Part shown: one piece after another, positions 4,875 to 19,190 of the stretch
Position numbering within the stretch: the stretch's first letter is position 1
Layout of the letters: every line of letters begins with the position of its first letter
From: a virus
Virus record (IMG/VR): IMGVR_UViG_3300046000_011930
Location: 1 to 21,191 of that record
DNA: 21,191 bases
Reading direction: 5' to 3' (one strand)
The notes under the pieces: generated by a model
Told to the model about the DNA's origin: nothing
Seen by the model: only the letters and a program-made list of their open reading frames with translations
The model's database searches: none
Position numbers and translations under genes: made by a program

Positions 4875-4901
4875 GGGGGAGTTTTGCTCCCCCAAATTTT
4901 T
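4875..4901 (+). terminator. Intrinsic terminator after the 3656-4865 operon
   Basis: GGGGGAG (4875-4881) pairs perfectly with CTCCCCC (4887-4893) around a 5-base loop and is followed by AAATTTTT. It also abuts the stop of the convergent minus-strand gene. Confidence 0.85.
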
Positions 4902-6701: not shown

Positions 6702-8570
6702 ATGACAAAACACATTCAACAAACTTATCAAGTTCTTGACGAGATTGAACACATTAGAAAACGAACTGGCATGTATTGCGGTTCTACTTCTGTTCAAACA
6801 AGTCAAGAATGGGTGCTAAACAACACCACAAAGAAAATGGAAAAGCGAGATATTTCTTATATCCCAGCTTTTATTAAAATCTTCTCTGAAATTCTCGATA
6901 ATTCAATTGATGAAGGAAAAAGAGCACCGGATACATTAACTCAAATTAAAGTAGATATAACTTTTGATGAAATTTCTGTTCAAGATGATGGAAGAGGTAT
7001 CCCAGTAGTTCTTCATGAACAAACAGGAACTTATATCGCTGAAACTGTATTTTCAAATTTAAGAGCTGGTTCTAATTTTAACGATAATGAAGACCAATCG
7101 CTAATTGGAACTAATGGTGTTGGTTCGACGTTGACTAATGTTTTATCAACAAATTTTAAGATTGAATCTTGTGATGGTAAGAAAAAACTAACGCAAGATT
7201 TCTGGAATGGTATGCGCGAGCGTTCCGAGCCTATAATTAAAGATTTTACTAAAAATGGAACTAAAATTACGTTTACTCCAGATTATGAATTTTTTAAACT
7301 AAGTGGGTTAGATGCAGACCATATTCTACGAATTCAGAAAAAAGTAATAGATGCAGCTGCGAATAACTTAAACATTAAATTTTATTTTAATGGGGAATTA
7401 ATTAGATTTAGATCTTTTGACGATTATGTTGCATTATATTCAGATAATTACTTTACCGATAATAGTAAAGATTGGAATGTTGGTATTACCGATTCTGATG
7501 GATTTGAGCAAATTTCTTTTATTAACTCAGTAGAAACCTATCAGGGTGGAACTCATGTTAATTATGTTGTTGATCAAGTAACAAATAAGTTACGCGAACA
7601 TTTTAAAAAGAAACATAAAGTTGATGTAAAACCATCTGATATTAAAAATCATTTTAGAATTTTTATTGCAGGAACTGTTAACCGCCCTAGATTTTCCAGT
7701 CAAACTAAAGAAAATATGATTAGTCCTGCATCTGAATGGAAAACTTCATGGACTGTTAGCGATAAATTTATTAAAGGTTTATTAAAATCTGATATTATTC
7801 AGTCTATTTTAGACTGGGTTCAAGCTAAAGAAAAAGCATCTGAATTAGCTGAATTGCGTAAAGCTAATAAGAACTTAGATAAAGCCGATCCAAGAAGAGT
7901 TGATAAATTCCATGATGCTTCTACTAAACAACGTAGTGATGCAATGCTTTTTCTTGCTGAAGGAGATTCAGCTTTATCTGGTTTATTATCAGGTAGAGAT
8001 CCAAAGACAATGGCTGCATTTCCGCTACGTGGCAAACCCATAAATGTAATGCCAATGGAATTAAAAGATATTCTTGAAAATAGAGAGTTTAAAAATATTA
8101 TGACAATTACTGGGCTTCAGTTTGGGGTTAAGGTAAATTCTATTGAAGATATTCGATTTGGTAAAATTGTATTATCAACAGACCAAGATTTAGATGGGTT
8201 TGGTATTCGTGGACTATTGTTAAATGCTTTTTATAAATTTTGGCCAGAATTATTTTCCTTGGGTATTATCCATATTTTAAATACACCAATTGTCAAGGTT
8301 AAGTATAAAAAAGATACATTATCTTTTCATGATTTGACATTATTTGAGAAATGGAAAGAAAAACATGTTAACGAAAAATATGAGTCAAAATATTACAAAG
8401 GATTAGGAACTAGTTCTAGTAAAGAGTGGAAAGAGTATCTAACGGATTTATCTGGTAATTTGGAAAAAGTTGTTAGTGAAATTGGTGATGTGGATATTTT
8501 TACATTACAATTTTCTAAAGATACTGGTAGCGCTGATAAAAGAAAACAATGGTTGAATATTGAAGGATAA
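6702..8570 (+). CDS. 39: DNA topoisomerase II large subunit (T4 gp39 type, with TOPRIM)
   Basis: The 622-residue ATP-hydrolysing subunit of the phage type IIA topoisomerase, which acts with the 8573-9880 product to relieve supercoils during replication. The GHKL ATPase motifs are EILDN at 63-67, DDGRGIP at 95-101 and GTNGVGSTLTNVLS at 136-149. The TOPRIM metal site is present in the same chain: EGDSA at 420-424 and DQDLDG at 494-499. In phage T4 itself this region is split between gp39 and gp60; here it is one uninterrupted gene, as in most relatives. PLRGKPINV and YKGLGTSSSKEW are further conserved landmarks. The gene is two bases upstream of the partner subunit and is driven by the sigma70-type promoter at 6643. 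Confidence 0.95.
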   Translation: MTKHIQQTYQVLDEIEHIRKRTGMYCGSTSVQTSQEWVLNNTTKKMEKRDISYIPAFIKIFSEILDNSIDEGKRAPDTLTQIKVDITFDEISVQDDGRGIPVVLHEQTGTYIAETVFSNLRAGSNFNDNEDQSLIGTNGVGSTLTNVLSTNFKIESCDGKKKLTQDFWNGMRERSEPIIKDFTKNGTKITFTPDYEFFKLSGLDADHILRIQKKVIDAAANNLNIKFYFNGELIRFRSFDDYVALYSDNYFTDNSKDWNVGITDSDGFEQISFINSVETYQGGTHVNYVVDQVTNKLREHFKKKHKVDVKPSDIKNHFRIFIAGTVNRPRFSSQTKENMISPASEWKTSWTVSDKFIKGLLKSDIIQSILDWVQAKEKASELAELRKANKNLDKADPRRVDKFHDASTKQRSDAMLFLAEGDSALSGLLSGRDPKTMAAFPLRGKPINVMPMELKDILENREFKNIMTITGLQFGVKVNSIEDIRFGKIVLSTDQDLDGFGIRGLLLNAFYKFWPELFSLGIIHILNTPIVKVKYKKDTLSFHDLTLFEKWKEKHVNEKYESKYYKGLGTSSSKEWKEYLTDLSGNLEKVVSEIGDVDIFTLQFSKDTGSADKRKQWLNIEG

Positions 8571-8572
8571 TT

Positions 8573-9880
8573 ATGAAAGAAATTACAATTGAAAGATTAT
8601 TTCAGGAACAATACAAACCATATGCCAATTATGATAACGAACGGTCAATCGTTAATTTAATTGATGGATTAAAGATTACTCAAAGAAAAGTTCTTTATAC
8701 ATGTTTATTAAAGAATGTTAATTCTGAAATGAAAGTTGCGCAATTAGCATCTTCTGTTGCTTATGAAACACAATATCATCATGGAGAACAAGGAATAGCT
8801 GGGGTTATTTGTAATCTAGCTCAAGACTTTACTGGATCCAATAACTTAAACTGGTTAGATCCCATTGGTCAGTTTGGTTCAAGATTATCACCTGTTCCTG
8901 CAGCTGCTCGATATATTTTTACTAAATTATCGAAAAATTTTAGATTATATTTTCGTAAAGAAGATGATATTATCTTAGAACATTTATTCGAGGATGACTT
9001 TAAAATAGAGCCTAATTTTTTCGTTCCAATCCTCCCTGGAGTGCTTTTAAACAACTCGCTAGGAATAGGTACGGGTTTTGCTTCTACGATCCTCTCAAGA
9101 GATCCAAAGGAACTTGCAAAGTATATTAAAGCTAAACTCTCTGGAAGTTCAAAGAAATTTCAATTATTACCACATTTTCGCGGATTTAAAGGTAGCGTAA
9201 CTCGACTTGATGATAATAAGTATCAAATCAAGGGTTCTATCTCTAGAATTAATGCTACACAGGTAAAGATTACTGAATTACCAGTAGGAATGTATCTTGA
9301 TGATATTAAGAAACAGCTTAATAAATTAGTAGAGAATAATTCTATTAAAGATTATGAAGATAATTCAACGGAAGAAGGGTTTGATATTGATGTATTTTAT
9401 CAGCGCGGAATTCTTAATTCAATGGAGGATGATACTATTCTTGAAAAATTAAAGTTAGTTACAACAGTAACAGAGAATTTAACCTGTTGGTTGCCTACTG
9501 GTAAATTAAGAAAGTTTGGGTCGGTTAATGAAATTATTGATTATTTTATCGATTGGCGTTTAGGTAAATATACAGATAGAATCGATAAATTAATTGAAAT
9601 CCTTGATAATGATATTATTGATTTAAATGAACGAGTAAGATTTATCTATTTTTATCTAGGTAATGTTGATAAATTTAAAAACGCTTCTAAGATTGAATTA
9701 TTTAGTATTTTAGAAGAAAATAATTTTGACAGTAAATTATTAGATATGAAGATTTGGAATTTAACTGGAGATAGAATTATCGAGTTAGAGCAAAAGGTTA
9801 AATCTTTGGTTGAGCAAAAGGTTGAGTTGCAAGAAACAACAAATATTGTATTATACGCAAAAGAATTGGAGCAAATATGA
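8573..9880 (+). CDS. 52: DNA topoisomerase II medium subunit (T4 gp52 type)
   Basis: The 435-residue DNA-breaking subunit of the type IIA topoisomerase. The catalytic tyrosine is Tyr114 in the motif PAAARYIFTKL, next to the DPIGQFGSR loop (96-104); T4 gp52 has its tyrosine at nearly the same place. DGLKITQRKVLYTCL (31-45) and the HHGEQGIAG helix (69-77) are typical GyrA/ParC-like winged-helix elements, and the tower region reads LPGVLLNNSLGIGTGFAS. A coiled-coil near the C-terminus (RIIELEQKVKSLVEQK) is the usual dimer arm. There is no beta-pinwheel C-terminal domain, as expected for a non-gyrase phage enzyme. The stop overlaps the start of the next gene (ATGA). Confidence 0.95.
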   Translation: MKEITIERLFQEQYKPYANYDNERSIVNLIDGLKITQRKVLYTCLLKNVNSEMKVAQLASSVAYETQYHHGEQGIAGVICNLAQDFTGSNNLNWLDPIGQFGSRLSPVPAAARYIFTKLSKNFRLYFRKEDDIILEHLFEDDFKIEPNFFVPILPGVLLNNSLGIGTGFASTILSRDPKELAKYIKAKLSGSSKKFQLLPHFRGFKGSVTRLDDNKYQIKGSISRINATQVKITELPVGMYLDDIKKQLNKLVENNSIKDYEDNSTEEGFDIDVFYQRGILNSMEDDTILEKLKLVTTVTENLTCWLPTGKLRKFGSVNEIIDYFIDWRLGKYTDRIDKLIEILDNDIIDLNERVRFIYFYLGNVDKFKNASKIELFSILEENNFDSKLLDMKIWNLTGDRIIELEQKVKSLVEQKVELQETTNIVLYAKELEQI

Positions 9881-10062
9881 GTGTAAATTTAACGCCAAAA
9901 GAGATGTCAGAATTACAGGGTAGATTTTCTACCGTGATGATTAATGAAACTATTAGTAATGATACTATTGTTTGTACTTTATCTACGGGTAAGGTGGTAA
10001 ACGGAGTAGTTACTGAGAACGGAGTTCAAATTAAATCTGTTTCTGAATTATTATTCGGGTAA
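9877..10062 (+). CDS. Small hypothetical protein coupled to the topoisomerase
   Basis: A 61-residue frame whose ATG overlaps the stop of the gp52-type gene, so it is probably translationally coupled. The sequence has an N-terminal helix (TPKEMSELQGRFSTVM) followed by beta strands (DTIVCTLSTGKVVNGVVTENGVQIKS, here described in two pieces: residues 29-43 and 44-54). It could be a tiny beta-barrel. No family recognised. It is the last gene of the operon before a bidirectional terminator. Confidence 0.65.
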   Translation: MSVNLTPKEMSELQGRFSTVMINETISNDTIVCTLSTGKVVNGVVTENGVQIKSVSELLFG

Positions 10063-10067
10063 ATAAA

Positions 10068-10097
10068 AAATGGGAGCGAAAGCTCCCATTTCCTTTA
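10068..10097. terminator. Bidirectional terminator between convergent genes
   Basis: AAATGGGAGC (10068-10077) and GCTCCCATTT (10082-10091) form a perfect 10-bp stem with a GAAA loop. T-rich sequence follows on both strands. It serves the topoisomerase operon and the 10095-11282 gene. Confidence 0.85.
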
Positions 10098-11282
10098 TTG
10101 CATTTTGGCTAATCTTTCTTTAGCAATCGAACTTACAGTTTGCGCGTCATCATTTGCTAAATGTTGTAAATGTTGTTTGGTAGCTAAAGGGTGAGCAGCA
10201 ACAACTTTTCTTACTAATGAGTGCGGGTCTTTTATAGCTTTATCTAAATGTTTTGTGGTTACAGTTTTAGGTCGAGTTAATGCAAGTTCCCGTGTAGTTA
10301 CGCTTCTATTGTCAGTATTATTTAATACTTTATCAATATGATCAGAATTTATTTTTGGATGCGTTATTGCATTATTTTTTATATTTCCTATTTTATCATC
10401 TAATGCTGTATGTAAATGGTCTTCATCAACATTAGGATGTTTTATTGCTTTATTTCTTACTTCCCAATTTTCGGAATGTAATCCATCATGAATATCTTTT
10501 TTAGATGCTGTTGGTGAGTCTAATTTTTTATTTGAGATATGATCATCGTATGCTCTTTTAACTGGGGCAATTTTCTTTACGTCTGGATTTCTATGAACAA
10601 AGTCTTCTAATCTATCGCCTTCAATTGTTTTATTATTTTCATCTTGAAATTGTCCTTCTACTCCAACGCCACCAATTCTTCTATATGGAAATTGTTCTTT
10701 ATGCATATGTAGGATATGGAAATTACCTTCAGACTCGTCATTATAATGATTAAACATATTTTGATTTGCATCTGGATGAGAAGTACACCAACCCAATTTC
10801 TCGCCTTTTGGTGATTTACCTAATTCCTGAGCTGCTTCTGTTTTATGCACGTGATAAGCCGTAGCATTTGGACTATTATGAATAACAGTTGAACCTTTAT
10901 TAATTTTATCTTGATTTACAGCTTTTACTTGTTCATCTTGTTCTTTATGCGGATGAATAGCTGTTTTTAATTCCGAAACAGATTTATATTGTTCAACTTT
11001 TTTCTTCGGAAGATTATGTTTGTATTTTTCAAAATTAGTCAACGTATCTTTCATATCAGGAGCATCTTCTTGTTTCATTTCGCCTTTTTTATATCGGTCA
11101 ACCATCCATCGAGTATGTTGGACGTTGCCATTAGGAGTATGTTTATGGAAGTGATCGATAATATCCGCAGCAGATTTATGTTTTCCTTCTAAATCATGTT
11201 GAGTAGAAATATCTTTTTCTTGAGCTTTATAGTCGTCTATCTTAGCTTCAAGTAAAGAAATGAAATGTTTAAATCTTATCAT
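10095..11282 (-). CDS. Paralogue of the 4900-6618 protein, short HEAT-like solenoid
   Basis: 395 residues. The leader MIRFKHFISLLEA ends in an L-L-E site. Residues about 14-235 are clearly homologous to the 572-residue protein, sharing KIDDYKAQE, SAADIIDHFHKHTP, LGWCTS, GNFHILHMHKEQFP and GQFQDENNKTIEG. The C-terminal part has only about five divergent repeats (for example TTKHLDKAIKDPHSLVRKVVA and TKQHLQHLANDDAQTV) instead of twelve. The two genes lie on either side of the topoisomerase operon, both minus strand and both behind a late promoter, so they look like a dispersed duplication followed by repeat gain or loss. Function is unknown; a head-packaged protein is inferred from the leader. 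Confidence 0.75.
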   Translation of the reverse strand: MIRFKHFISLLEAKIDDYKAQEKDISTQHDLEGKHKSAADIIDHFHKHTPNGNVQHTRWMVDRYKKGEMKQEDAPDMKDTLTNFEKYKHNLPKKKVEQYKSVSELKTAIHPHKEQDEQVKAVNQDKINKGSTVIHNSPNATAYHVHKTEAAQELGKSPKGEKLGWCTSHPDANQNMFNHYNDESEGNFHILHMHKEQFPYRRIGGVGVEGQFQDENNKTIEGDRLEDFVHRNPDVKKIAPVKRAYDDHISNKKLDSPTASKKDIHDGLHSENWEVRNKAIKHPNVDEDHLHTALDDKIGNIKNNAITHPKINSDHIDKVLNNTDNRSVTTRELALTRPKTVTTKHLDKAIKDPHSLVRKVVAAHPLATKQHLQHLANDDAQTVSSIAKERLAKMQ

Positions 11283-11304
11283 ATGGAGATCCTAGAAATA
11301 ATGC

Positions 11305-11333
11305 TTGACTTTTTAATATATGTATGGTATAAT
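11305..11333 (+). promoter_or_regulatory. Sigma70-type promoter, now separated from the RNase H gene
   Basis: TTGACT (11305-11310), a 17-base spacer and TATAAT (11328-11333), with the ATGC extension. The next plus-strand gene is the RNase H gene at 12234; an endonuclease gene on the opposite strand lies between. Any transcript from here would be antisense to that endonuclease. Confidence 0.75.
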
Positions 11334-11334
11334 A

Positions 11335-11342
11335 TATTTATA
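11335..11342 (-). promoter_or_regulatory. T4-type late promoter, minus strand
   Basis: TATAAATA on the minus strand about 53 bases before the 11282 start. This is the same position relative to its gene as in the paralogue at 6618. Confidence 0.55.
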
Positions 11343-11345
11343 AAT

Positions 11346-12089
11346 TTAGAATAAATGCTTTAAGTCTGGGAAAACTCTACTTGCTACACATATATCATAT
11401 TCTTTTTTATTTTTAATATTGCACAAAAATAAATCTTTCTTTTTATGTTTTTTATTTGTTGTTCCAAGGTTAAACCCATCTGGTATTTGATCATCTTTGC
11501 CTATTTGAATATTAATTATATTATTTGTGATCCAAGTATATTGATAATTTTTTAAATTTAATTTACCATAAATCCATCCAGTAGGTATTTGTTCATTTTT
11601 GTGTATTTTATTATTAATTATTCCGTTATTTATCCAGACTTTATTTTTATTATGACTTTTATCTCCAGATATTTTTAATGAGAATTCTAATTTTCTTTTA
11701 TCTGACCACCTATTATTCCAATTAGGATTATTTTCTCCAATACAATTTTGTAATTTATATTCATCAGTAAATACTTTACCTGAACCTCCTTCGCCGCCGT
11801 CAGTTAGATTTAAAAGAATTCCAGTTCCTAGATCTTTTCTGCCATGCCAACGAATTAATCTTCGTTCAATAGCAAAAGCGCCAGTTTCGGTGAGATTTGA
11901 TTCTATAACAATAATTAACGATTTATCTTTTGGTAATTTTATTCTTCCATGTTTTGCATATGCCCGTTTTCCTTGACCTTTTCCAATATAATATGGAGTT
12001 CCTGCTTTTGCAGTTATTGAATCTTTTGATCTGAGATAGGCGTAAACGTAAAAAGATTTTTGTTTTGTATAAGTATTTGTGCTGGGCAT
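11346..12089 (-). CDS. Free-standing GIY-YIG homing endonuclease 2
   Basis: 247 residues. The GIY-YIG core reads YVYAYL at 14-19 and PYYIGKG at 32-38, with [10 protein letters not shown] after it and the probable catalytic Glu in [13 protein letters not shown] (Glu75); [10 protein letters not shown] follows. The C-terminal part has two copies of a DNA-binding repeat found in phage endonucleases: [20 protein letters not shown] and [25 protein letters not shown] lies seven bases before the ATG. The gene is on the strand opposite the RNase H gene, inserted into its promoter/leader region, and carries its own late promoter and leader hairpin. Confidence 0.85.
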
Positions 12090-12122
12090 TACAGTCTCCT
12101 GATTGTTGTAGAAATGTTTAGA

Positions 12123-12152
12123 GCTTATGGGTGGTGAGACACCGCGATAAGC
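12123..12152 (-). promoter_or_regulatory. Homing-endonuclease leader hairpin, copy 2
   Basis: On the minus strand the outer stem is GCTTAT/ATAAGC. An internal loop has CGC on the 5' side and C on the 3' side, and an inner stem GGTG/CACC closes a 6-base loop. The 3' flank starts TCTAAACATT and leads to AGGAG. Apart from the stem sequences it matches the hairpin at 592-621, with compensatory changes in both stems. Confidence 0.7.
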
Positions 12153-12161
12153 ATTTTTTCC

Positions 12162-12190
12162 TTGACTTTATACTACTTTTATAGTATAAT
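12162..12190 (+). promoter_or_regulatory. Sigma70-type promoter for the RNase H gene
   Basis: TTGACT (12162-12167), a 17-base spacer and TATAAT (12185-12190), 44 bases before the ATG. Unlike the other copies, the base context before the -35 element is TTCC rather than ATGC, consistent with the junction of an inserted cassette. Confidence 0.8.
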
Positions 12191-12192
12191 TT

Positions 12193-12200
12193 TATTTATA
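12193..12200 (-). promoter_or_regulatory. T4-type late promoter for homing endonuclease 2
   Basis: TATAAATA on the minus strand, 40 bases before the leader hairpin and about 105 bases before the endonuclease start. Confidence 0.4.
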
Positions 12201-12233
12201 GTAATTAATATTTTTAATATAGGATTTTTTGTC

Positions 12234-13082
12234 ATGGCTATACTTATTGATTTCCACCAAGTAGTAATTAGTGGATTGCAATCTCAAGTTGCATCAAATA
12301 GAATTAATGTTTTAAGTAAAGATTTATGTCGGCACCTAGTTTTAAACTCGATTAGATCGCATATACATAAATTTAAAAAAGAATATGGTGAAGTAATTAT
12401 CTGCTGCGACTCCAGAAAATACTGGAGAAAAGAAGTATTTCCATTCTATAAAGCAGGAAGAAAAAAAGCACGAGAAGCATCTAAATTAGACTGGACTGTT
12501 ATTTTTGAAGTGCTTGATGAAGTTCGCGAAGATTTAAAAATTATTTTTCCGTATAAAGTGGTGCATGTTGAGCGAGCTGAAGCTGATGATGTAATTGGTA
12601 CATTAGTTCCTAGAATTAGTGCTCATGAAACTGTAATTATAATTAGTTCTGATGGCGATTTTAAACAATTACATCAATATTCTAATGTTAAACAGTATAA
12701 TCCAATGTTAGGTATTTATGTTAAATCAGAAAACCCTCAATTAGAGTTAAAGGAAAAAATATTAACTGGTGATGCTGGAGATGGTATTCCATCGGTATTA
12801 TCTAATGATGATGTATTTGTTGCGGGTATTCGTCAGAAACCTTTAACAGCTAAGAAAAAAGCTGTTATGTTAACTGAAGATTTTAATAATCCAGATATTG
12901 AAAATTATCGTAATATTCAGAGAAATAAATTATTAATTGATTTGACTATGACTCCCCAGGATATCAAAGATGCCATCGTTGAACAGTATGAAGCTCCAAA
13001 AACAGGTTCAAAACAGATGTTGATGAAGTATTTTATCGAAAAAAAGCTAACTCGATTATTAGAAGTCATTGACGAATTTTGA
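12234..13082 (+). CDS. rnh: RNase H / 5'-3' exonuclease (T4 rnh, FEN-1 family)
   Basis: 282 residues from the ATG at 12234, with AGGA upstream. A longer frame opening with TTG at 12162 overlaps the promoter and is rejected. Flap-nuclease motifs are LIDFH (Asp6), CCDSRKYWRKEVFPFYKAGRKKAR (Asp59 and the basic helix, 57-80), EADDVIG at 116-122, SSDGDFKQL at 138-146 and the helix-hairpin region GDAGDGIPSV at 179-188. Like T4 RNase H, it should remove RNA primers from lagging-strand fragments, working with the phage replication machinery. It is followed by a terminator. Confidence 0.92.
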   Translation: MAILIDFHQVVISGLQSQVASNRINVLSKDLCRHLVLNSIRSHIHKFKKEYGEVIICCDSRKYWRKEVFPFYKAGRKKAREASKLDWTVIFEVLDEVREDLKIIFPYKVVHVERAEADDVIGTLVPRISAHETVIIISSDGDFKQLHQYSNVKQYNPMLGIYVKSENPQLELKEKILTGDAGDGIPSVLSNDDVFVAGIRQKPLTAKKKAVMLTEDFNNPDIENYRNIQRNKLLIDLTMTPQDIKDAIVEQYEAPKTGSKQMLMKYFIEKKLTRLLEVIDEF

Positions 13083-13090
13083 TGTACCAT

Positions 13091-13117
13091 AAAAACCAAC
13101 TATAAAGGTTGGTTTTT
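13091..13117. terminator. Intrinsic terminator after rnh
   Basis: AAAAACCAAC (13091-13100) pairs perfectly with GTTGGTTTTT (13108-13117) around a 7-base loop. The T tract runs straight into the late promoter TATAAATA. Confidence 0.85.
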
Positions 13118-13124
13118 ATAAATA
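13117..13124 (+). promoter_or_regulatory. T4-type late promoter for pmoC
   Basis: TATAAATA 69 bases before the pmoC ATG and directly after the rnh terminator. No TTGAC/TATAAT pair is evident in this gap, so late expression of pmoC is inferred. The last base of the terminator is the first base of the octamer. Confidence 0.5.
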
Positions 13125-13193
13125 AACTTAACTTGGATTGATGTTTAATTCAAGCTAAACTTTTTTTAATTTTCCCTTGGTTAGGAGAATAAT

Positions 13194-14195
13194 ATGTCAG
13201 CTACAGTTGAAACAGTAAAAGCAGAAGTTGCAGAAGCACCGCTTTTAAACAAAAGAAATATGTTGTTAGGCGCAGCTTTGTATATTGTATTTTATGGTTG
13301 GGTTCGTTGGTATGAGGGTGTATATGGATGGTCAGCTGGTTTAGATTCATTTGCTCCAGAGTTTGAAACATATTGGATGAATTTCCTTTATATTGAGATG
13401 GTACTTGAGGTATTAACTGCATCAGTGTTGTGGGGTTATATCTGGAAGACTCGCGATCGTAAAGTAATGTCAATTACCCCTAGAGAAGAATTGAGACGTC
13501 ATTTTACTCATTGGGTATGGTTAGTAATGTATGGTATTGCAATTTATTATGGTGCTTCATATTTTACTGAACAAGATGGTACATGGCATCAAACAATCGT
13601 TCGTGACACTGATTTTACTCCAAGTCACGTTATTGAGTTTTATCTAAGTTACCCAATTTATATTATTACTGGTGTAGCTTCATTCTTATACGCTAAAACT
13701 CGTTTACCAACCTATCAAAAAGGATTACCATTACAATATTTGGTATCTGTAATTGGTCCTTTTATGATTCTTCCAAACGTAGGTTTGAATGAATGGGGTC
13801 ATACTTTCAAAACAGGAAGCTCATTATAGCAATATAATGATGAGAACTCTGTGAAAACGGTGAACATCCAGAACGGACAATACCGTGCCAAGCCTAGAAA
13901 TAGGAAGGTGTAACGACTATTCCGAAAGGAAGTACACTCAAGTGAGTGGAAGCGCAGGGCAACCCACGTGGTTGATGAGATAGTCTGCTCTAACTGGGAA
14001 CAGTTAGCAGTTCATAAGAGAACGATATAAGTGTAACGAACTTATATGAACATAGGCTGGTTTATGGAGGAGTTATTTGTTGCTCCTTTGCATTATGGGT
14101 TTGTATTTTTTGGATGGGCTGCGCTTGGTGTATTAGGTGTAGTAAATATCGAAGTACAAGCTATTTCTAAATTATTGAAAAACGATTTAGTTTAA
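13194..14195 (+). CDS. pmoC: Particulate methane monooxygenase subunit C, split by a group I intron (join 13194-13807, 14057-14195)
   Basis: Joined exons give 250 residues, the normal PmoC length. Unspliced, the frame stops at 13829 after residue 211. The C-terminal 45 residues (WFMEELFVAPLHYGF onward) are in the downstream exon. The protein is an integral membrane subunit of copper methane monooxygenase with about six helices. The metal ligands known from Methylococcus (Asp156, His160, His173) align with Asp128, His132 and His145 in DGTWH and TPSH. The CuD ligands (Asn227, His231, His245) align with Asn199, His203 and His217. RWYEGVYGWSAGLDSFAPEF and RDTDFTPSH are gammaproteobacterial PmoC hallmarks. 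No pmoA or pmoB is near, so it would act by joining host subunits. AGGAG precedes the ATG. Viral pmoC genes are known from freshwater phages. Confidence 0.93.
13808..14056 (+). other. Group I self-splicing intron in pmoC (249 nt, no internal endonuclease)
   Basis: The boundaries restore the conserved PmoC frame exactly. The 5' exon ends ...ACTTT (U at 13807) and the intron ends in G at 14056. P1 pairs CUUU (13804-13807) with GAAG (13816-13819) and puts a G-U wobble at the splice site. P2 is 13821-28/13833-40, P5 13873-76/13883-86, and P6/P6a 13887-89/13907-09 and 13893-96/13901-04 with a GAAA loop. P7 is GACTA (13915-19) with TAGTC (13981-85), inside the typical AACGACTAttCCGAAAGG and gatgagaTAGTC contexts. 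P8 is 13935-39/13944-48, P9 13990-96/14001-07 with a GGAA loop, and a further hairpin 14026-32/14040-46. I could not settle P3 and P4 by eye. Subgroup IA is a guess from resemblance to T4 introns. Confidence 0.9.
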
Positions 14196-14200
14196 TCGAT

Positions 14201-14230
14201 AAAGAAAAGGGGCTTAAGCCCCTTTTCTTT
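14201..14230. terminator. Palindromic bidirectional terminator between pmoC and homing endonuclease 3
   Basis: A perfect 30-base palindrome centred on CTTAAG, with arms AAAGAAAAGGGGCTT and its complement, followed by T runs in both directions. The last five codons and stop of the minus-strand endonuclease lie inside it. Confidence 0.85.
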
Positions 14231-14867
14231 TTTTACAATTATTAAAATGGTATCTTGTCATATTTCCGCGACCTTGTTTATTACAATGCGGGCATGTTAG
14301 TATATCATTTTTATTATATTTTGGGTTTTGTTTACAGTTAGTAAAATGAAACCTTGTCATTACTGCTTTATTTCCAGACAATAAACAATGCGGGCATATT
14401 ACTGGAGTCATTGATTGTTTAGCTAACGATACTTTTTTATTATGTTCAGCAGTTTTAGGTTTTTTCATCCTTAATTTCGTTAGTTCTGACTTAGGTATTC
14501 CTTTTGCTACGTTTGATAATTTTAATTTATGTTCTACAGATAATGATATACCTGTATTATCGAATCTTTCTATTGCAAACGAACAATTAATATATAAAGG
14601 CGATTTAACTACATTTAATTGTTTTTGAATTTTTTCTTCTTTGCAATATGCTTCTTTTCGTGTATAATGCGTTGAAATTATTTTAGTTTTAAATAATGCT
14701 GGATTTATTTTTCGTTCTGATTTCCATATATCTTTATATTTTATAGAACATACAGATCCATTATAACCTTTTGCTATGTTAGTTAACGAAGATGATCCAA
14801 TATAGAAAGGCGGTAATTTATTCCCGTAATAAATTGTAAGATATACACAATACTTATAAATACTCAT
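14214..14867 (-). CDS. Free-standing GIY-YIG homing endonuclease 3 with C-terminal zinc fingers
   Basis: 217 residues. The GIY-YIG core is VYLTIYYG (8-15) and FYIGSSS (21-27), followed by a basic segment and KEAYCKEEKIQKQL (71-84), which probably carries the catalytic Glu. SVEHKLKLSNVAKG (110-123) and a second EHNKKVSLAK (141-150) are NUMOD3 motifs. The C-terminus has two C-x2-C-x(11-12)-H-x3-C zinc fingers: Cys158, Cys161, His174, Cys178 and Cys192, Cys195, His207, Cys211. AAGGAGT precedes the ATG. It lies on the opposite strand just 18 bases after the second exon of pmoC and could be the enzyme that spreads the neighbouring intron, but that link is only positional. Confidence 0.85.
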   Translation of the reverse strand: MSIYKYCVYLTIYYGNKLPPFYIGSSSLTNIAKGYNGSVCSIKYKDIWKSERKINPALFKTKIISTHYTRKEAYCKEEKIQKQLNVVKSPLYINCSFAIERFDNTGISLSVEHKLKLSNVAKGIPKSELTKLRMKKPKTAEHNKKVSLAKQSMTPVICPHCLLSGNKAVMTRFHFTNCKQNPKYNKNDILTCPHCNKQGRGNMTRYHFNNCKKRKGA

Positions 14868-14892
14868 GCTGATACTCCTTAGAAGTGTTAGA

Positions 14893-14923
14893 ATCAGCGG
14901 ATACTTGCAATATCGCGGCTGAT
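14893..14923 (-). promoter_or_regulatory. Homing-endonuclease leader hairpin, copy 3
   Basis: On the minus strand the outer stem is ATCAGC/GCTGAT, then an internal loop of CGC against C, then an inner stem GATA/TATC with a 7-base loop. The 3' flank starts TCTAAC. It has the same plan as the copies at 592 and 12123 although all stem bases differ. Confidence 0.65.
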
Positions 14924-14927
14924 ATAT

Positions 14928-14935
14928 TATTTATA
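14928..14935 (-). promoter_or_regulatory. T4-type late promoter for homing endonuclease 3
   Basis: TATAAATA on the minus strand, four bases before the leader hairpin, in line with the arrangement at endonuclease 1. Confidence 0.5.
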
Positions 14936-14981
14936 ATATTTAGCGACAAAAACTTTAAATTAGTTCTTAGAAAACTAATTC

Positions 14982-14989
14982 TATAAATA
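14982..14989 (+). promoter_or_regulatory. T4-type late promoter for the 15017 gene
   Basis: TATAAATA 27 bases before the ATG at 15017. A ribosome site GAGGAAAT lies in between. It diverges from the late promoter of endonuclease 3. Confidence 0.55.
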
Positions 14990-15016
14990 TTATTAAGTAA
15001 CCACGAGGAAATATTT

Positions 15017-15526
15017 ATGGAATTAGACGAAAGAAAAAGTCCGCTTACTCTTAAATGCTGGAAAAATTACCACAAACAAGGCACTAAGATGAAAGGCGGC
15101 AAGCGAGTTAATAATTGCGTTCCCAATGAAAGCGTTGAATTAACGCCTGAAGAAATGTTTGATATGATTGAAAGTACCGTTGAAGAATATGCAACTGACA
15201 ATGGGTTTGCTAGCGAATACCTTTGGGAGTTATATGATGTTATTAGTGATAATGAGTTATTGGAATATGCAATTGATGCAAAAGGTCACAAAAGTTCTGC
15301 TGGTGGGTTAACTCAAAAAGGTGTTGATGCGTATAGAAGAGAAAATCCAGGAAGTAAACTTAAAACTGCTGTGACTACTCCACCAAGTAAATTAAATCCA
15401 GATAGCAAAGCTGCAAAAAGACGTAAAAGTTTTTGTGCTAGGATGGGTGGTATGCCTGGAGCAATGAAAGATGACAATGGAAAGCCTACTCGAAAAGCAT
15501 TAGCTTTAAGAAAGTGGAATTGTTAA
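15017..15526 (+). CDS. Phage hypothetical protein with CW-GTK tail motif and DUF6321-like basic domain
   Basis: 169 residues in three blocks. Residues 14-36 hold CWKNYHKQGTKMKGGK then NNCVP, a Cys-bounded motif seen in many T4-like marine and freshwater phage proteins. Residues 42-85 are an acidic helical stretch (LTPEEMFDMIESTVEEYA). Residues 96-169 are a strongly basic block starting GGLTQKGVDAYRRENPGSKL, then KAAKRRKSFCARMGGMPG and KPTRKALALRKWNC, resembling the DUF6321-type domain found alone or fused in phage proteins. The combination suggests a nucleic-acid-associated protein, perhaps virion-related given its late promoter, but no function is known. It ends at a strong terminator. Confidence 0.75.
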   Translation: MELDERKSPLTLKCWKNYHKQGTKMKGGKRVNNCVPNESVELTPEEMFDMIESTVEEYATDNGFASEYLWELYDVISDNELLEYAIDAKGHKSSAGGLTQKGVDAYRRENPGSKLKTAVTTPPSKLNPDSKAAKRRKSFCARMGGMPGAMKDDNGKPTRKALALRKWNC

Positions 15527-15530
15527 ACTA

Positions 15531-15556
15531 AAAGGAGCTTTTTGCTCCTTTTTTAT
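15531..15556 (+). terminator. Intrinsic terminator
   Basis: AAAGGAGC (15531-15538) pairs with GCTCCTTT (15544-15551) around five T residues and is followed by a T run. Confidence 0.85.
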
Positions 15557-15568
15557 TCTGGAGGTATT

Positions 15569-15676
15569 ATGGAAAATGTAACTGTAGCAGACGAATTCGG
15601 TGTAGTAATGATAGCAATTATATCAACAATTGCTATATTAATGTATGTCTTAGATTGCGATTGCGATGACTGTTAA
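15569..15676 (+). CDS. Membrane microprotein with Asp/Cys tail (35 aa)
   Basis: A short frame starting at 15569 behind a strong TGGAGG ribosome site. The product has an acidic N-terminus, one hydrophobic segment at about residues 11-27 (GVVMIAIISTIAILMYV), and the tail DCDCDDC. A terminator lies directly upstream, so its promoter is unclear; readthrough or a weak internal promoter would be needed. The stop overlaps the end of the convergent HNH gene by four bases. The Cys/Asp tail could bind metal. The strong ribosome site and the clear transmembrane pattern are the main support. Confidence 0.55.
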   Translation: MENVTVADEFGVVMIAIISTIAILMYVLDCDCDDC

Positions 15677-15996
15677 TTTTTATAATAGTTACAAAATTTA
15701 GTTATTTCTTCTTCGGATAAATTATTTTTAGCTCGATTAGCTTTTACTGATATAATTAGTAGATTATCTATTTCGTATCCTTTCGAACTATCAATTCTAT
15801 CGAAACTATAACTATCATCTTGAGGTTTGTTTCTATGCCATTTTAACGGTATATTCAACACAGGGCAAGAAATTGGAAAACTTATATTATTTAACTCAGA
15901 TAAAGTTAATGTAAAATTTATATTTCTTTTTTTAGCTGATGATTTTAAGTTATTATAGATCTGTTTAATTTCCGGTGGTTTTATTTTATATTCCAT
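15673..15996 (-). CDS. HNH endonuclease (107 aa)
   Basis: The start is placed at the ATG at 15996 (MEYKIKPPEIKQIYNN). A frame extending to 16056 would run into the divergent neighbouring gene. The protein fits small phage HNH nucleases: SCPVLNIPL (43-51) with one metal-type Cys, then SFDRIDSSKGYEIDNLLIIS (64-83), where SxDRID and GYxxxNxxxxS are the core of the fold, and VKANRAKNNLS (84-94). Most relatives use this as a free-standing homing endonuclease. It lacks the late promoter and leader hairpin of the other three endonuclease genes and has no good ribosome site, so its expression differs or is poor. Confidence 0.75.
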   Translation of the reverse strand: MEYKIKPPEIKQIYNNLKSSAKKRNINFTLTLSELNNISFPISCPVLNIPLKWHRNKPQDDSYSFDRIDSSKGYEIDNLLIISVKANRAKNNLSEEEITKFCNYYKN

Positions 15997-16047
15997 AGTT
16001 TTGCATTTAAAATAAATATATCTATAACAACATAAAATAGGATTCTT

Positions 16048-16419
16048 ATGAAACACTACTTAAAAGAAATTTATGATGAAGAAATACATGATGGTTTTAT
16101 GTTTATCTTAGATGAGAATGAACAATTAGATATTTCAGCATTTACATATAAAGATAATGCTCAACCAATTGAAAAACATGAATTAGGATTTAAGTATCAT
16201 ATTATAACATATAAAGAAACAATTGACGGGGATGTAGTAGAACCTGATATGTTTGAAGCAATTTTAGGTAATCCGCATCATTATATTGCAAATTTACTTA
16301 AAAGCGGATTCTTTGGAACGATTTGTAAGAAAACAAAAACATCAAGTGAACTTGCCAATACAATGTATGAAGATTTAATAAACATGGTAACAGAAGACGA
16401 TGAATACGCAAGTGCATAA
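16048..16419 (+). CDS. Hypothetical phage protein (123 aa)
   Basis: The ATG at 16048 has TAGGATT upstream. The protein is acidic, opening MKHYLKEIYDEEIHDGFMF. It has beta-rich stretches (FILDENEQLDISAF, YHIITYKETIDGDVVEP) and a helical end (SSELANTMYEDLINMV). I do not recognise the family. It overlaps the next gene by 20 bases and probably forms an operon with it. No clear promoter is visible in the short gap to the HNH gene. Confidence 0.65.
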   Translation: MKHYLKEIYDEEIHDGFMFILDENEQLDISAFTYKDNAQPIEKHELGFKYHIITYKETIDGDVVEPDMFEAILGNPHHYIANLLKSGFFGTICKKTKTSSELANTMYEDLINMVTEDDEYASA

Positions 16420-16642
16420 ATTAATTGAGGAATATTTTCCTAATGACAAAGAAAAAGCCCTAGCATTTGTTCGAGCTATTTCTCATGGAATCAATTCCGA
16501 GATACAAAGATTTTCAACTGAAGAATATAAAAAATTTACATCTAGTACAAATAATGAGATTAAAGGAAGTTCGTATGTATTAGGAGTTAGCGATGGAGCT
16601 GATATTTGTATTAGTTTAATACAAGATATGCTTGACGAATAG
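16400..16642 (+). CDS. Hypothetical phage protein (80 aa)
   Basis: Its start lies inside the end of the upstream gene (20-base overlap), suggesting translational coupling. Mostly helical: TQVHKLIEEYFPNDKEKALAF, then FSTEEYKKFTSST, and a C-terminal VSDGADICISLIQDML. The last codons (MLDE) are also the -35 region of the next promoter. Family not recognised. Confidence 0.65.
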   Translation: MNTQVHKLIEEYFPNDKEKALAFVRAISHGINSEIQRFSTEEYKKFTSSTNNEIKGSSYVLGVSDGADICISLIQDMLDE

Positions 16643-16660
16643 ATAGTTTTATAGTATAAT
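16632..16660 (+). promoter_or_regulatory. Sigma70-type promoter inside a gene end
   Basis: TTGACG (16632-16637), a 17-base spacer and TATAAT (16655-16660). The ATGC extension and -35 box encode the final residues of the preceding protein. It drives the zinc-ribbon gene at 16694. Confidence 0.8.
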
Positions 16661-16693
16661 TAATTTGTTGTTTAACTAAAGTGAGGTATTAAA

Positions 16694-16846
16694 ATGGCGT
16701 CAACTGTTGAAATTAAACGTTGTAACTGTACTGGCGGAAAAGCTGCTGAATATCAAGATGCAACTTATGGTAAAAATATGCGAGTTATGAACGAAGACCA
16801 AAAGAAAGGATATACTTGTACTGTCTGCGGCGCGAAACATAAGTAA
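16694..16846 (+). CDS. Zinc-ribbon microprotein (50 aa)
   Basis: A 50-residue frame starting behind GTGAGG at 16694. Cysteines come in two pairs, RCNC at residues 10-12 and TCTVCG at 42-45, separated by about 30 residues, forming a plausible zinc ribbon; the middle is charged (YQDATYGKNMRVMNED) and the end is GAKHK. It has its own consensus promoter and its own terminator, a single-gene transcription unit, which argues that a protein this small is truly expressed. The role is unknown; small zinc ribbons in phages often contact host transcription or replication proteins. Confidence 0.7.
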   Translation: MASTVEIKRCNCTGGKAAEYQDATYGKNMRVMNEDQKKGYTCTVCGAKHK

Positions 16847-16882
16847 TCATTCTACAATAATAATATAAGTTATGTATATTTA

Positions 16883-16914
16883 AGCCAGAAGCGCAATACT
16901 TCTGGCTTTTTTTA
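16883..16914. terminator. Intrinsic terminator after the zinc-ribbon gene
   Basis: AGCCAGAAG (16883-16891) pairs with CTTCTGGCT (16899-16907) and is followed by seven T residues on the plus strand. It may also serve the convergent gene ending at 16920. Confidence 0.85.
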
Positions 16915-16919
16915 TATTA

Positions 16920-17222
16920 TTACTTTTTACTTTTTTTGGCTGCTTTTGCTACTGTTGAAACTTTACCTGCTACATCTGCAATTTTAGCTTCACCTTCAGA
17001 TGCCGCCACAGTAGATATTTGTTCTGATACTGCGCCAACTAAATCTCCTGAAGTATTTACTTCCTCGCCAACTTTTGCAGCTGCATCGCCTGCTTTTTGA
17101 GTTAAAGCCACTAAATCTGCATGACCAGTTGCTACTTCCACTGTTGTTGCTATTGCTGTTAATGTTGGAGCTGCTTTACCTAATCCAACAAATGCCTCTT
17201 TTATTTTACTAAAAAAACTCAT
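16920..17222 (-). CDS. Small Ala-rich hypothetical protein, paired with a holin-like gene
   Basis: 100 residues rich in Ala, Val, Thr and Gly. The N-terminal helix is MSFFSKIKEAFVGLGKAAPTL; a weakly hydrophobic middle (TAIATTVEVATGHADLVAL) follows, then Ala-rich helices, and a Lys-rich end. It starts one base after the stop of the 17224-17463 gene, so the two are co-transcribed from the late promoter at 17484. No family is recognised. A late-expressed membrane-associated or virion protein is possible. Confidence 0.65.
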   Translation of the reverse strand: MSFFSKIKEAFVGLGKAAPTLTAIATTVEVATGHADLVALTQKAGDAAAKVGEEVNTSGDLVGAVSEQISTVAASEGEAKIADVAGKVSTVAKAAKKSKK

Positions 17223-17223
17223 T

Positions 17224-17463
17224 TTATTTCTCCTTTGTATCTTCTTTTAGGAATATCCCTGCTATAGCAAATACTGCAGATAATCCATTCATTACATTAT
17301 TCCACATTTGATCCGAAATATTAGTTCCAAATACGGCAAATATCGCAGCTAATGCGGCATGACTACTTGGTTCTCTTAGTCGACTATAAACATAAAATAG
17401 TTTATTATATTCGCCTTGTAGAGTTCTTGGTTCTTTTATATATGCTAGTATTTTATTCATCAC
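17224..17463 (-). CDS. Holin-like small membrane protein
   Basis: 79 residues: a charged N-terminal part (MMNKILAYIKEPRTLQG), a hydrophobic stretch SHAALAAIFAVFG at about 34-46, a polar turn (TNISDQMWNNVM), a second hydrophobic stretch GLSAVFAIAGIFL at about 60-72, and a charged end KEDTKEK. A two-helix hairpin with charged tails is the usual layout of phage holins, and similar proteins occur in T4-like cyanophages. No lysozyme gene is in the window, so the lysis role is only suggestive. It is behind a late promoter. Confidence 0.55.
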   Translation of the reverse strand: MMNKILAYIKEPRTLQGEYNKLFYVYSRLREPSSHAALAAIFAVFGTNISDQMWNNVMNGLSAVFAIAGIFLKEDTKEK

Positions 17464-17483
17464 TTTCTCCAGTTTTTTACTTC

Positions 17484-17491
17484 TATTTATA
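17484..17491 (-). promoter_or_regulatory. T4-type late promoter, minus strand
   Basis: TATAAATA on the minus strand 21 bases before the holin-like gene start. Confidence 0.55.
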
Positions 17492-17532
17492 TAAACTAAA
17501 TAAATTGGGATTAATTATTAAAATAGGATTTT

Positions 17533-17748
17533 ATGTTAAATTGGCTTGGTACTGTAAACTTTCTTATCGCTGGATCTTTAATTGCAACAAATATTGAACC
17601 GTATACAAAATATGCATTTATTTTCTTTTTGATAGGGCATGGATTATGTTTAATAAATGCATATTGTAAAAATATTGCATCATTAAAATTGCGATATTCT
17701 TTTTTCTGTGTAATAGATTCTTATGGGATCTACAATTGGTTTACATAA
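17533..17748 (+). CDS. Small membrane protein (71 aa)
   Basis: Three hydrophobic segments: NWLGTVNFLIAGSLIATNI, YAFIFFLIGHGLCLINAYC and LRYSFFCVIDSYGIYNWF. The end resembles a half of PnuC-type transporters or small phage membrane proteins with a closing D-xx-G-I-Y-xW-F motif, but it is too short to be a transporter alone. TAGGATTT precedes the ATG. No good promoter is visible in the 70-base gap. It is followed after nine bases by another membrane microprotein. Confidence 0.6.
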   Translation: MLNWLGTVNFLIAGSLIATNIEPYTKYAFIFFLIGHGLCLINAYCKNIASLKLRYSFFCVIDSYGIYNWFT

Positions 17749-17757
17749 GGAGATATT

Positions 17758-17838
17758 ATGATTTCGCTTTGGATTGCTGCGTTTTCTGTTATACTCACAT
17801 ATTTTTTAATTGAAACTTTGTATAAAGATAATGAATAA
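17758..17838 (+). CDS. Single-pass membrane microprotein (26 aa)
   Basis: A 26-residue frame with a very good AAGGAGAT ribosome site nine bases after the previous stop. One hydrophobic helix (SLWIAAFSVILTYFLI) and a charged tail (KDNE). A terminator starts directly after the stop. No family is known. Support rests on the ribosome site, the spacing and the hydrophobic pattern. Confidence 0.5.
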   Translation: MISLWIAAFSVILTYFLIETLYKDNE

Positions 17839-17863
17839 AAAAAGGAGCTTTACGCTCCTTTTG
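17839..17863. terminator. Bidirectional terminator between convergent genes
   Basis: AAAAGGAGC (17840-17848) and GCTCCTTTT (17854-17862) with a 5-base loop. The last codons of the convergent minus-strand gene lie within it. Confidence 0.8.
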
Positions 17864-18089
17864 CTTTTGGGATAGTAGGCGTCTTACAATAAGAATCAAC
17901 CATTTTTCTAGCTGCATCTGGTGTCATTTTATGATCTTTTACTACAGCATCAACTGCTTTTTTAATATGTTTTTGTTCGACAGGCGCAGCACCAGAAGCA
18001 AAAATTGGACCAATATGGTATTTAATTGTTTGCTGAACGTCTTTTACTGAACCTTCATATAATTGTCGAAATTCTCTAAAACTTTTCAT
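17850..18089 (-). CDS. Small probable virion protein with capsid-targeting leader
   Basis: 79 residues. The opening MKSFREFRQLYEG has the Met-x-x-Phe-x-x-Phe pattern seen in T4 internal proteins and ends in an L-Y-E site of the T4 prohead-protease type. The rest is a short basic helical protein (QKHIKKAVDAVVKDHKMTP, ARKMVDSYC). It is separated from the upstream minus-strand gene by its own terminator. Function unknown; head packaging is inferred from the leader shared with three other proteins here. Confidence 0.6.
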   Translation of the reverse strand: MKSFREFRQLYEGSVKDVQQTIKYHIGPIFASGAAPVEQKHIKKAVDAVVKDHKMTPDAARKMVDSYCKTPTIPKAKGA

Positions 18090-18097
18090 TTATTTTT

Positions 18098-18122
18098 CCT
18101 AAAAAGGGGGATTTCTCCCCCA
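18098..18122 (-). terminator. Minus-strand terminator after the 18129-19190 gene
   Basis: On the minus strand GGGGGA and TCCCCC form a stem with a GAAA loop and are followed by five T residues, directly upstream of the next gene's ribosome site. Confidence 0.8.
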
Positions 18123-18128
18123 TATCAA

Positions 18129-19190
18129 TTAAGATCTTGGATCTTTATAGATTGATGTATTTTGTTTTGGTGCGGGGAACTTTTTAACTACATCATGAAC
18201 CGCGTCAAAATGTTTAGGTGATTTTTGCATGTGAGCCATAACTTCTTGTCTTTTTTGTGGTTTTAATCCAGCCATAAAGCTATTAATTCTTTTTGCATCG
18301 CCATGTTGAAGAGTAACAGATCCTTGTCTTAAATCAATATCTCTGTGAGCATTTGGTTTTGACATTTCACCTTTAGCTGCACGAGCTGCTAATCCAGCTT
18401 GAACTCTTTTGTCATCAGGATTTTCTTTTTCATCATCAGATAATGGATTATCATCAATATCTTCAGCTGTTTTTAATTTTCCATGAAGAGATTTACTAAA
18501 TGAATCATCATCTACTTCAGCATGTTTTTCATCTTTATAATCATCATCTTCTTTTGGTTTTTTCATTTTACTAATTGTTTTGCTGTAATCATCATGATCA
18601 TTGTCATCATCATCGTCGTGTGATTCTTGAATACCAAATACTCGTTGAGCAACACCAATTTTAGATTCTTCTAATCTGGCTGCAATTTTAGACGAGATAA
18701 TATCAGTAAATGATTGTGTAGATTCAACTAAATTACCTGATAAGATAGTTTCAATCATACCTTGAATAGATTCTCTTGTTACTTGCATATCATCATGTTC
18801 TTGACCAGAACGACGAGTTGCAGGTTTGTTTCTAGCAAGATAACGAGCATCATGTTTTTCTGGTGGTTCGCCGGCATCTTTGCGTTCCTGCGCTCTTAAA
18901 CGCAATAAATCACCTAATTCATCTTTTTTCTGTTTTTTAGGGCGACCATAACTACCTGTATATGCTTCTTCGACTCCACCTTTATATTCTTTAGCTTTTT
19001 GTGCGTTAATAAAGTCTTTTAATGAAGAATCAGGATTCTTTTTCATAAACTTATCATAGTTTGCTTTGAATTTAGGGTGTTTTGGATTATGTAGTTCGTA
19101 TGGACCAGAACCTTCTTCTAATTCTTCTTCTTCCTCGAAATCATCTTCATCTAGGTCAAAATCATCTGGGTCGTTGTATAAATTACTCAT
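18129..19190 (-). CDS. Acidic virion or scaffold-type protein (353 aa)
   Basis: Very acidic N-terminus (residues 7-26, mostly Asp and Glu). GPYELHNPKHPKFKANYDKF and SLKDFINAQK follow, then a basic, Lys/Arg-rich linker. The central module at about 144-174 (SGNLVESTQSFTDIISSKIA then ARLEESK) is shared with the 603-residue neighbour. After it come an Asp/His-rich stretch and a C-terminal helical part ending VVKKFPAPKQ. Charge-segregated, low-complexity sequence with a short SSKIAxRLEE module is typical of prohead core or scaffold proteins of T4-like phages, but this is an inference. NLVE-S and RLEE-S could be prohead-protease sites. A late promoter at 19223 precedes it. Confidence 0.6.
   Translation of the reverse strand: MSNLYNDPDDFDLDEDDFEEEEELEEGSGPYELHNPKHPKFKANYDKFMKKNPDSSLKDFINAQKAKEYKGGVEEAYTGSYGRPKKQKKDELGDLLRLRAQERKDAGEPPEKHDARYLARNKPATRRSGQEHDDMQVTRESIQGMIETILSGNLVESTQSFTDIISSKIAARLEESKIGVAQRVFGIQESHDDDDDNDHDDYSKTISKMKKPKEDDDYKDEKHAEVDDDSFSKSLHGKLKTAEDIDDNPLSDDEKENPDDKRVQAGLAARAAKGEMSKPNAHRDIDLRQGSVTLQHGDAKRINSFMAGLKPQKRQEVMAHMQKSPKHFDAVHDVVKKFPAPKQNTSIYKDPRS

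Follow-up and report, generated by a model that had tools for sequence, protein, structure and literature searches.

Group I introns and fragmented pmoC genes in phages

Group I introns are already known in phage genes, including the auxiliary gene psbA, so the kind of element described here is not new. One of the closest described systems, as presented in PMC3984707 and PMC6083498, is that of cyanophage S-PM2, in which an ORF-less group I intron lies in the auxiliary metabolic gene psbA near a gene for a free-standing endonuclease, F-CphI, and moves by collaborative homing (other accounts of this process are in PMC3984707, PMC2988022 and PMC10448857). Phage T4 has group I introns in td, nrdB and nrdD, flanking exons are co-converted with such introns, and the nrdB intron homes in trans through mobE (PMC2988022). 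More than one group I intron per phage gene is also on record, since the Staphylococcus phage Twort nrdE gene is described as having two self-splicing introns (PMC3984707). Finally, "fragmented" pmoC genes were reported in phages TP6_1, BML_3, BML_4 and LR_6 (Chen et al. 2020, PMC7674155); in these large freshwater phages pmoC lies in two pieces around a noncoding stretch, which was not recognised as an intron, a word absent from the main text of that paper. No published report of an intron in pmoC was found in the open-licence literature.

The locus analysed here lies in a stretch of 21,191 nt (positions 1 to 21,191 of IMG/VR virus record IMGVR_UViG_3300046000_011930; "the window"). It differs from S-PM2 psbA, as that system is described in the two sources above, in that the host gene is a methane rather than a photosynthesis gene, the endonuclease is predicted to be GIY-YIG-like whereas F-CphI has an Endo VII motif, and pmoC has eight insertion sites with up to four introns per gene. 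Unlike the T4 cases, the pmoC intron is ORF-less and the endonuclease is encoded outside the interrupted gene on the other strand, and in contrast to Twort nrdE as described, one relative (L040) packs four introns into about 24 codons, with intervening exons of about 14-30 nt. The novelty lies in which gene is interrupted, in how densely it is interrupted, and in a proposed explanation for "fragmented" phage pmoC. The best explanation of the locus, to which we assign a probability of about 0.87, is that an ORF-less, IA2-like group I intron splices from pmoC and has spread by collaborative homing.

The interrupted pmoC gene

The window virus is a virus of methane-eating bacteria, with T4-like genes that include RNase H, PhoH and topoisomerase-like ORFs. 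Its pmoC gene starts at 13194, and exon 1 matches the Pfam AmoC family (PF04896, E 1.2e-102). As an earlier note on this DNA had pointed out, the PmoC frame ends prematurely at 13829, inside an insert, and the missing C-terminus (45 residues) is encoded downstream of that insert. The gene is laid out as follows:

13194-13807, plus strand: pmoC exon 1, from codon 1 to the first two bases of codon 205; 99.7% nucleotide identity to exon 1 of intronless sister phage L003
13808-14056, plus strand: group I intron, 249 nt, ORF-less, IA2-like; RF00028 match, exact insertion relative to L003, covariation
13827-13829, plus strand: TAG, first in-frame stop of the unspliced pmoC frame, within the intron
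14057-14195, plus strand: pmoC exon 2, from the rest of codon 205 to the stop TAA (14193-14195); apparently co-converted

Excision of 13808-14056 in silico restores F205 and a PmoC of 250 amino acids, as that note had predicted, and in the alignment to an intronless viral gene that it had proposed, the spliced gene and L003 pmoC are identical at 731 of 750 nt. Spliced PmoC products contain the conserved DGTWH and C-terminal motifs, and their residues 202-225 are those of intronless genes. The insert length is divisible by three, and stop codon read-through or recoding is ruled out because the 249 nt contain four in-frame stops, one TAG (13827) and three TAA (13911, 14028 and 14034). An assembly artefact is also ruled out, since the independent contig L002 has the same arrangement (99.9% identity over 10.3 kb).

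Structure and splice signals of the intron

The insert (13808-14056, 249 nt) is a group I intron within a phage pmoC gene. The Rfam covariance model RF00028 matches 13797-14007 with 63.9 bits (E 7.8e-16; gathering score 50 bits) in a 701-base search with permissive filters; an Rfam scan of the whole window with default fast filters missed it, a false negative. Chance is a very poor account of the structure, given the strong covariation among relatives described next and a predicted fold energy with a z of -3.86 against shuffles. When the standard group I helices were overlaid on a 13-row alignment (introns from phage pmoC genes plus one from a polymerase gene), 94.8% of cells were paired, compared with 34-46% after the partners were slid, and 50 of 69 pairs had changed on both sides. 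Helices P4-P9 are 97.9-100% paired, P7 and P8 being fully paired in all 13 sequences, and the window intron has the whole P3-P9 core, P7 included, with covariation in each core helix. Its helices, all on the plus strand, are:

13804-13819: P1, exon CUUU plus the first intron base C (13804-13808) with guide GGAAG (13815-13819); pairing script
13813-13815 with 14057-14059: P10, CAG with CUG; pairing script
13847-13853 with 13953-13959: P3, enclosing P4, P5, P6, P6a, P7.1 and P7.2 (region 13847-13959); covariation
13857-13862 with 13881-13886: P4; helix alignment, covariation
13867-13869 with 13875-13877: P5; helix alignment, covariation
13887-13889 with 13907-13909: P6; helix alignment, covariation
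13893-13896 with 13901-13904: P6a; helix alignment, covariation
13915-13919 with 13981-13985: P7, the guanosine-binding helix, GACUA with UAGUC; RF00028, 100% paired
13920-13923 with 13928-13931: P7.1; helix alignment, covariation
13935-13939 with 13944-13948: P7.2; helix alignment, covariation
13960-13964 with 13970-13974: P8; 100% paired in 13 sequences
13990-13996 with 14001-14007: P9, GGAA loop; covariation
14010-14013 with 14020-14023: P9.1; helix alignment, covariation
14025-14032 with 14040-14047: P9.2; helix alignment, covariation

The G-U wobble at the 5′ splice site that the earlier note had read from the letters is U13807.G13816 in P1, and the terminal G, the P7 pairing and the GNRA loops of P6a and P9 are likewise as it described (the terminal G is G14056). 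Its assignment of family, boundaries and host gene is right in all three respects; what it missed is the apparent co-arrival of a downstream endonuclease, seven further intron sites in pmoC and the published fragmented genes. The U.G pair and a P1 of at least 4 bp are present in each of the 15 introns tested, and all but one end in G. Introns of subgroup IA2 are marked by two additional paired elements, P7.1 and P7.2, located between the strands of P7 and P3. Two covarying hairpins occupy this position in the window intron, which we call IA2-like by this helix rule.

Introns at eight sites in phage pmoC

Among phages in IMG/VR, pmoC is interrupted by group I introns at eight sites, and 24 conserved codons contain six of these (numbered by window PmoC residues):

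between G45 and W46: L042
between G129 and T130: L113
between G202 and H203: L040
F205: window, L002, L013, L014
F207: L039, L040
between A214 and P215: L016, L040
F220: L009, L011
between G224 and W225: L039, L040

Every intron-bearing pmoC record tried scored above gathering with RF00028 (63.9 to 104.7 bits; 66.8 to 104.7 for the relatives without the window). The most crowded gene is that of L040 (IMGVR_UViG_3300047476_001516, 1480-2720), in which four introns of 94-105 bits each lie inside 1.24 kb of a single pmoC, with inner exons of about 14-30 nt. The first of these introns ends in A rather than G; use of a 3′ site nine bases further upstream would preserve the frame and add three residues, so this intron may be impaired. 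The G129/T130 site falls within the DGTWH motif; Asp156 and His160 have been named as copper ligands (PMC7674155), and from an alignment by eye window D128 and H132 appear to correspond to them. This phage methane-cycle gene is a hot spot for homing elements.

The introns are probably the reason that viral pmoC was described as "fragmented", which offers a testable answer to the published puzzle of broken-looking pmoC genes in large freshwater phages. If those genes are only split by introns, annotation and transcript studies undercount intact viral pmoC.

Is the intron spliced?

In the pmoC transcript the intron would fold and the end of exon 1 would pair with the internal guide (P1, with its U.G pair); two guanosine-started transesterifications would then remove the intron and join codon 205, giving full-length PmoC. 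From the sequence we infer that this happens in the cell. The intron could instead be real but have lost splicing, leaving pmoC broken and producing a truncated 211-residue protein that lacks the C-terminal segment. The missing terminal G of the first L040 intron and the lower expression of the C-terminal pmoC piece in one phage (Chen et al. 2020) point that way, but the window copy has kept its core helices, its guanosine site and its splice signals, the reading frame is kept across the introns in all eight intron-bearing lineages, and the exon 2 differences are almost all synonymous, also between intron-bearing lineages. Among pairs of downstream exons that share an intron site, window and L013 differ by 11 synonymous nucleotides and one nonsynonymous codon, and L039 and L040 by 22 and 2, respectively. 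The downstream exons of intron-bearing lineages are thus under purifying selection, which argues that the introns do splice, and dependence of pmoC on splicing would follow from the sequence and the selection on exon 2. Loss of splicing is accordingly judged quite unlikely.

Far less credible still is the possibility that no splicing occurs and exon 2 is translated alone, from the ATG at M208 or another start, the two polypeptides then assembling. There is indeed an in-frame ATG close to the start of exon 2, and two pmoC pieces have been described (PMC7674155), but this would not explain why each break has a group I structure with covariation, the inner exons of L040 are too short to be separate genes, and residues 202-225 are unaltered across the breaks; after intron removal all the pmoC products are intact and identical in this segment.

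The favoured reading, in which pmoC is spliced, can be set beside the published transcript data for LR_6, where Chen et al. (2020, PMC7674155) saw little transcription of the gap that divides the pmoC pieces, and much lower expression of the C-terminal than of the N-terminal piece. If the gap is an intron, the former is expected, since an intron would be removed and degraded, and the latter counts against full splicing and could mean incomplete splicing. A rather unlikely extension is that splicing acts as a control point, with the output of full-length PmoC depending on ribozyme-folding conditions or on competition with translation; homing introns would then gate phage support of methane oxidation during infection.

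The empty site and the transferred tract

Sister phage L003 is intronless and about 99% identical around pmoC, and so supplies the empty site. Identity between the two is 99.15% over 8191-13808 and 99.24% over 14960-18500, exon 2 is only 88.1% identical (14057-14190, against 99.2% in the flanks; Fisher p 4e-14), and the block 14193-14959 is missing from L003. In codons, exon 1 has two synonymous differences in 612 nt, and exon 2 has 15 synonymous differences and one nonsynonymous codon in 129 nt. Intronless phages L004 and L005 give the same boundaries. The tract and the ORF it contains are:

13805-14959: transferred tract of intron, exon 2 and endonuclease block; identity breakpoints against L003, L004 and L005
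14214-14867, minus strand: free-standing homing-endonuclease ORF, predicted to be GIY-YIG-like, convergent with pmoC; C-terminal zinc-finger-like repeats

Since the drop in identity is confined to 13805-14959, the flanks are 99% identical and an intronless sister has the empty site, the simplest reading is that the intron, exon 2 and the endonuclease ORF arrived in one conversion tract, which begins at most 3 nt from the insertion site and extends past the ORF. The layout is that of collaborative homing, a free-standing endonuclease gene adjoining an ORF-less intron within a single tract relative to three intronless sisters, and the tract is most simply read as the footprint of that process. 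During co-infection the endonuclease would cut an intronless pmoC, and repair from the intron-bearing copy would transfer the intron, exon 2 and the endonuclease gene together. Introns at the same site in L013 and L014 are 95% identical to that of the window and their exon 1 is 85% identical, which fits lateral transfer. Phage pmoC, with its many introns, offers a natural system for studying the part that introns and free-standing endonucleases play in moving auxiliary metabolic genes from phage to phage.

The endonuclease ORFs

ORF 14214-14867 matches PHROG 10820 (E 2.5e-24) and PHROG 314, "homing endonuclease" (E 5.1e-22), and the motif YLT..PFYIG was seen by eye; a Pfam search gave no GIY-YIG match and a PDB sequence search no relevant relative. 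The ORF is missing from L003, L004 and L005, and its IMG/VR relatives are one near-identical locus and others that are weak. That its product cuts pmoC, and where, is a prediction.

Of 11 contigs with an intron-bearing pmoC, 9 have an endonuclease ORF 3′ of the gene, compared with 2 of 29 intronless contigs of the gammaproteobacterial type; by lineage the intron-bearing figure is 6 of 8, against the same 2 of 29 contigs (p 3e-4). These counts come from a hand-compiled table of related contigs whose search seeds included endonucleases from intron-bearing loci and in which only the intron-bearing side was collapsed to lineages. The endonuclease might nevertheless be a bystander, the splicing-competent intron having arrived by reverse splicing or ordinary phage recombination, which we regard as unlikely but as the alternative with the most to be said for it. 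Two intron-bearing pmoC genes (L016 and L042) have no adjoining endonuclease, L023 and L041 show the reverse, the introns follow short motifs that match (CGGU and CGCU, for example), an outcome expected of reverse splicing, and the window intron core is 97.6% identical to that of an intron in a polymerase gene. Against this stand the association just given, a tract whose start is within 3 nt of the insertion and whose end lies past the endonuclease, and the different endonucleases that accompany different pmoC sites. The first founding of each site may have been ectopic, with collaborative homing, as we favour, responsible for the spread. L055 and L072 have an intronless, distant-type pmoC, yet an endonuclease ORF lies downstream.

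The endonuclease ORFs of the window (14214-14867), L009, L013, L040, L041 and L197 have a common C-terminal zinc-finger-like module (CPHC..GNMTRYHFDNCK) and different N-terminal parts, as if DNA-binding modules had been swapped among these pmoC-linked endonucleases. In L197 (350-1940) the 3′ end of pmoC is intact; beyond it come an endonuclease ORF on the opposite strand, some small genes and a second, displaced fragment encoding the PmoC C-terminus. This arrangement resembles a scar left when an inserted endonuclease gene replaced the pmoC 3′ end. A second endonuclease-like ORF of the window (11346-12089, minus strand) is present in L003 and missing from L005, and so seems to be another mobile gene that is polymorphic among sister phages.

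Ancestry of the introns

The polymerase intron (L110, 11141-11391) interrupts a family-B DNA polymerase gene, and a copy in L105 and L309 lies at the same motif (NSL/YGALGN). The window intron is 97.6% identical to it over P3-P9.2 and 48.6% over P1-P2, whereas it is 94-95% identical to the same-site L013 intron in both parts; its make-up therefore suggests a pmoC-specific guide region joined to a core held in common with the polymerase intron, through an exchange that may have gone in either direction. The intron tree has two well-supported clades, both represented in L040, with weak support within clades, and on this tree there are at least two deep intron lineages in phage pmoC. Introns at CGGU sites resemble one another, as they would if reverse splicing had carried them to ectopic sites, although the branches within clades have weak support.

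Inheritance of the intron from a bacterial host gene has no support among the bacterial pmoC genes examined. Of 80 methanotroph pmoC loci, 79 have no interruption and the other runs off the end of its contig; in a family-wide search of 237 bacterial genomes all pmoC genes among the matches listed are stop-free. Alphaproteobacterial-type phage pmoC showed no interruption among the matches listed, and tblastn of PmoC against INPHARED phages gave no match.

Outside pmoC, two RF00028 matches above gathering were seen in intron-bearing phages, in L313 (a 259-kb contig, 90180-90373) and L317 (the L040 contig, 8670-8874). In the phage-classed L314 (867-1823, at the end of contig 3300021354_000499), a DnaK-like gene lies beside a match to RF00028 that is weak and, at 36.3 bits, falls short of gathering. 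Elsewhere in the window, two minus-strand ORFs (4900-6618 and 10095-11282) encode large proteins that are related to each other and similar in their N-terminal parts; the former has repeated "ATKEHLDKL..DK" units.
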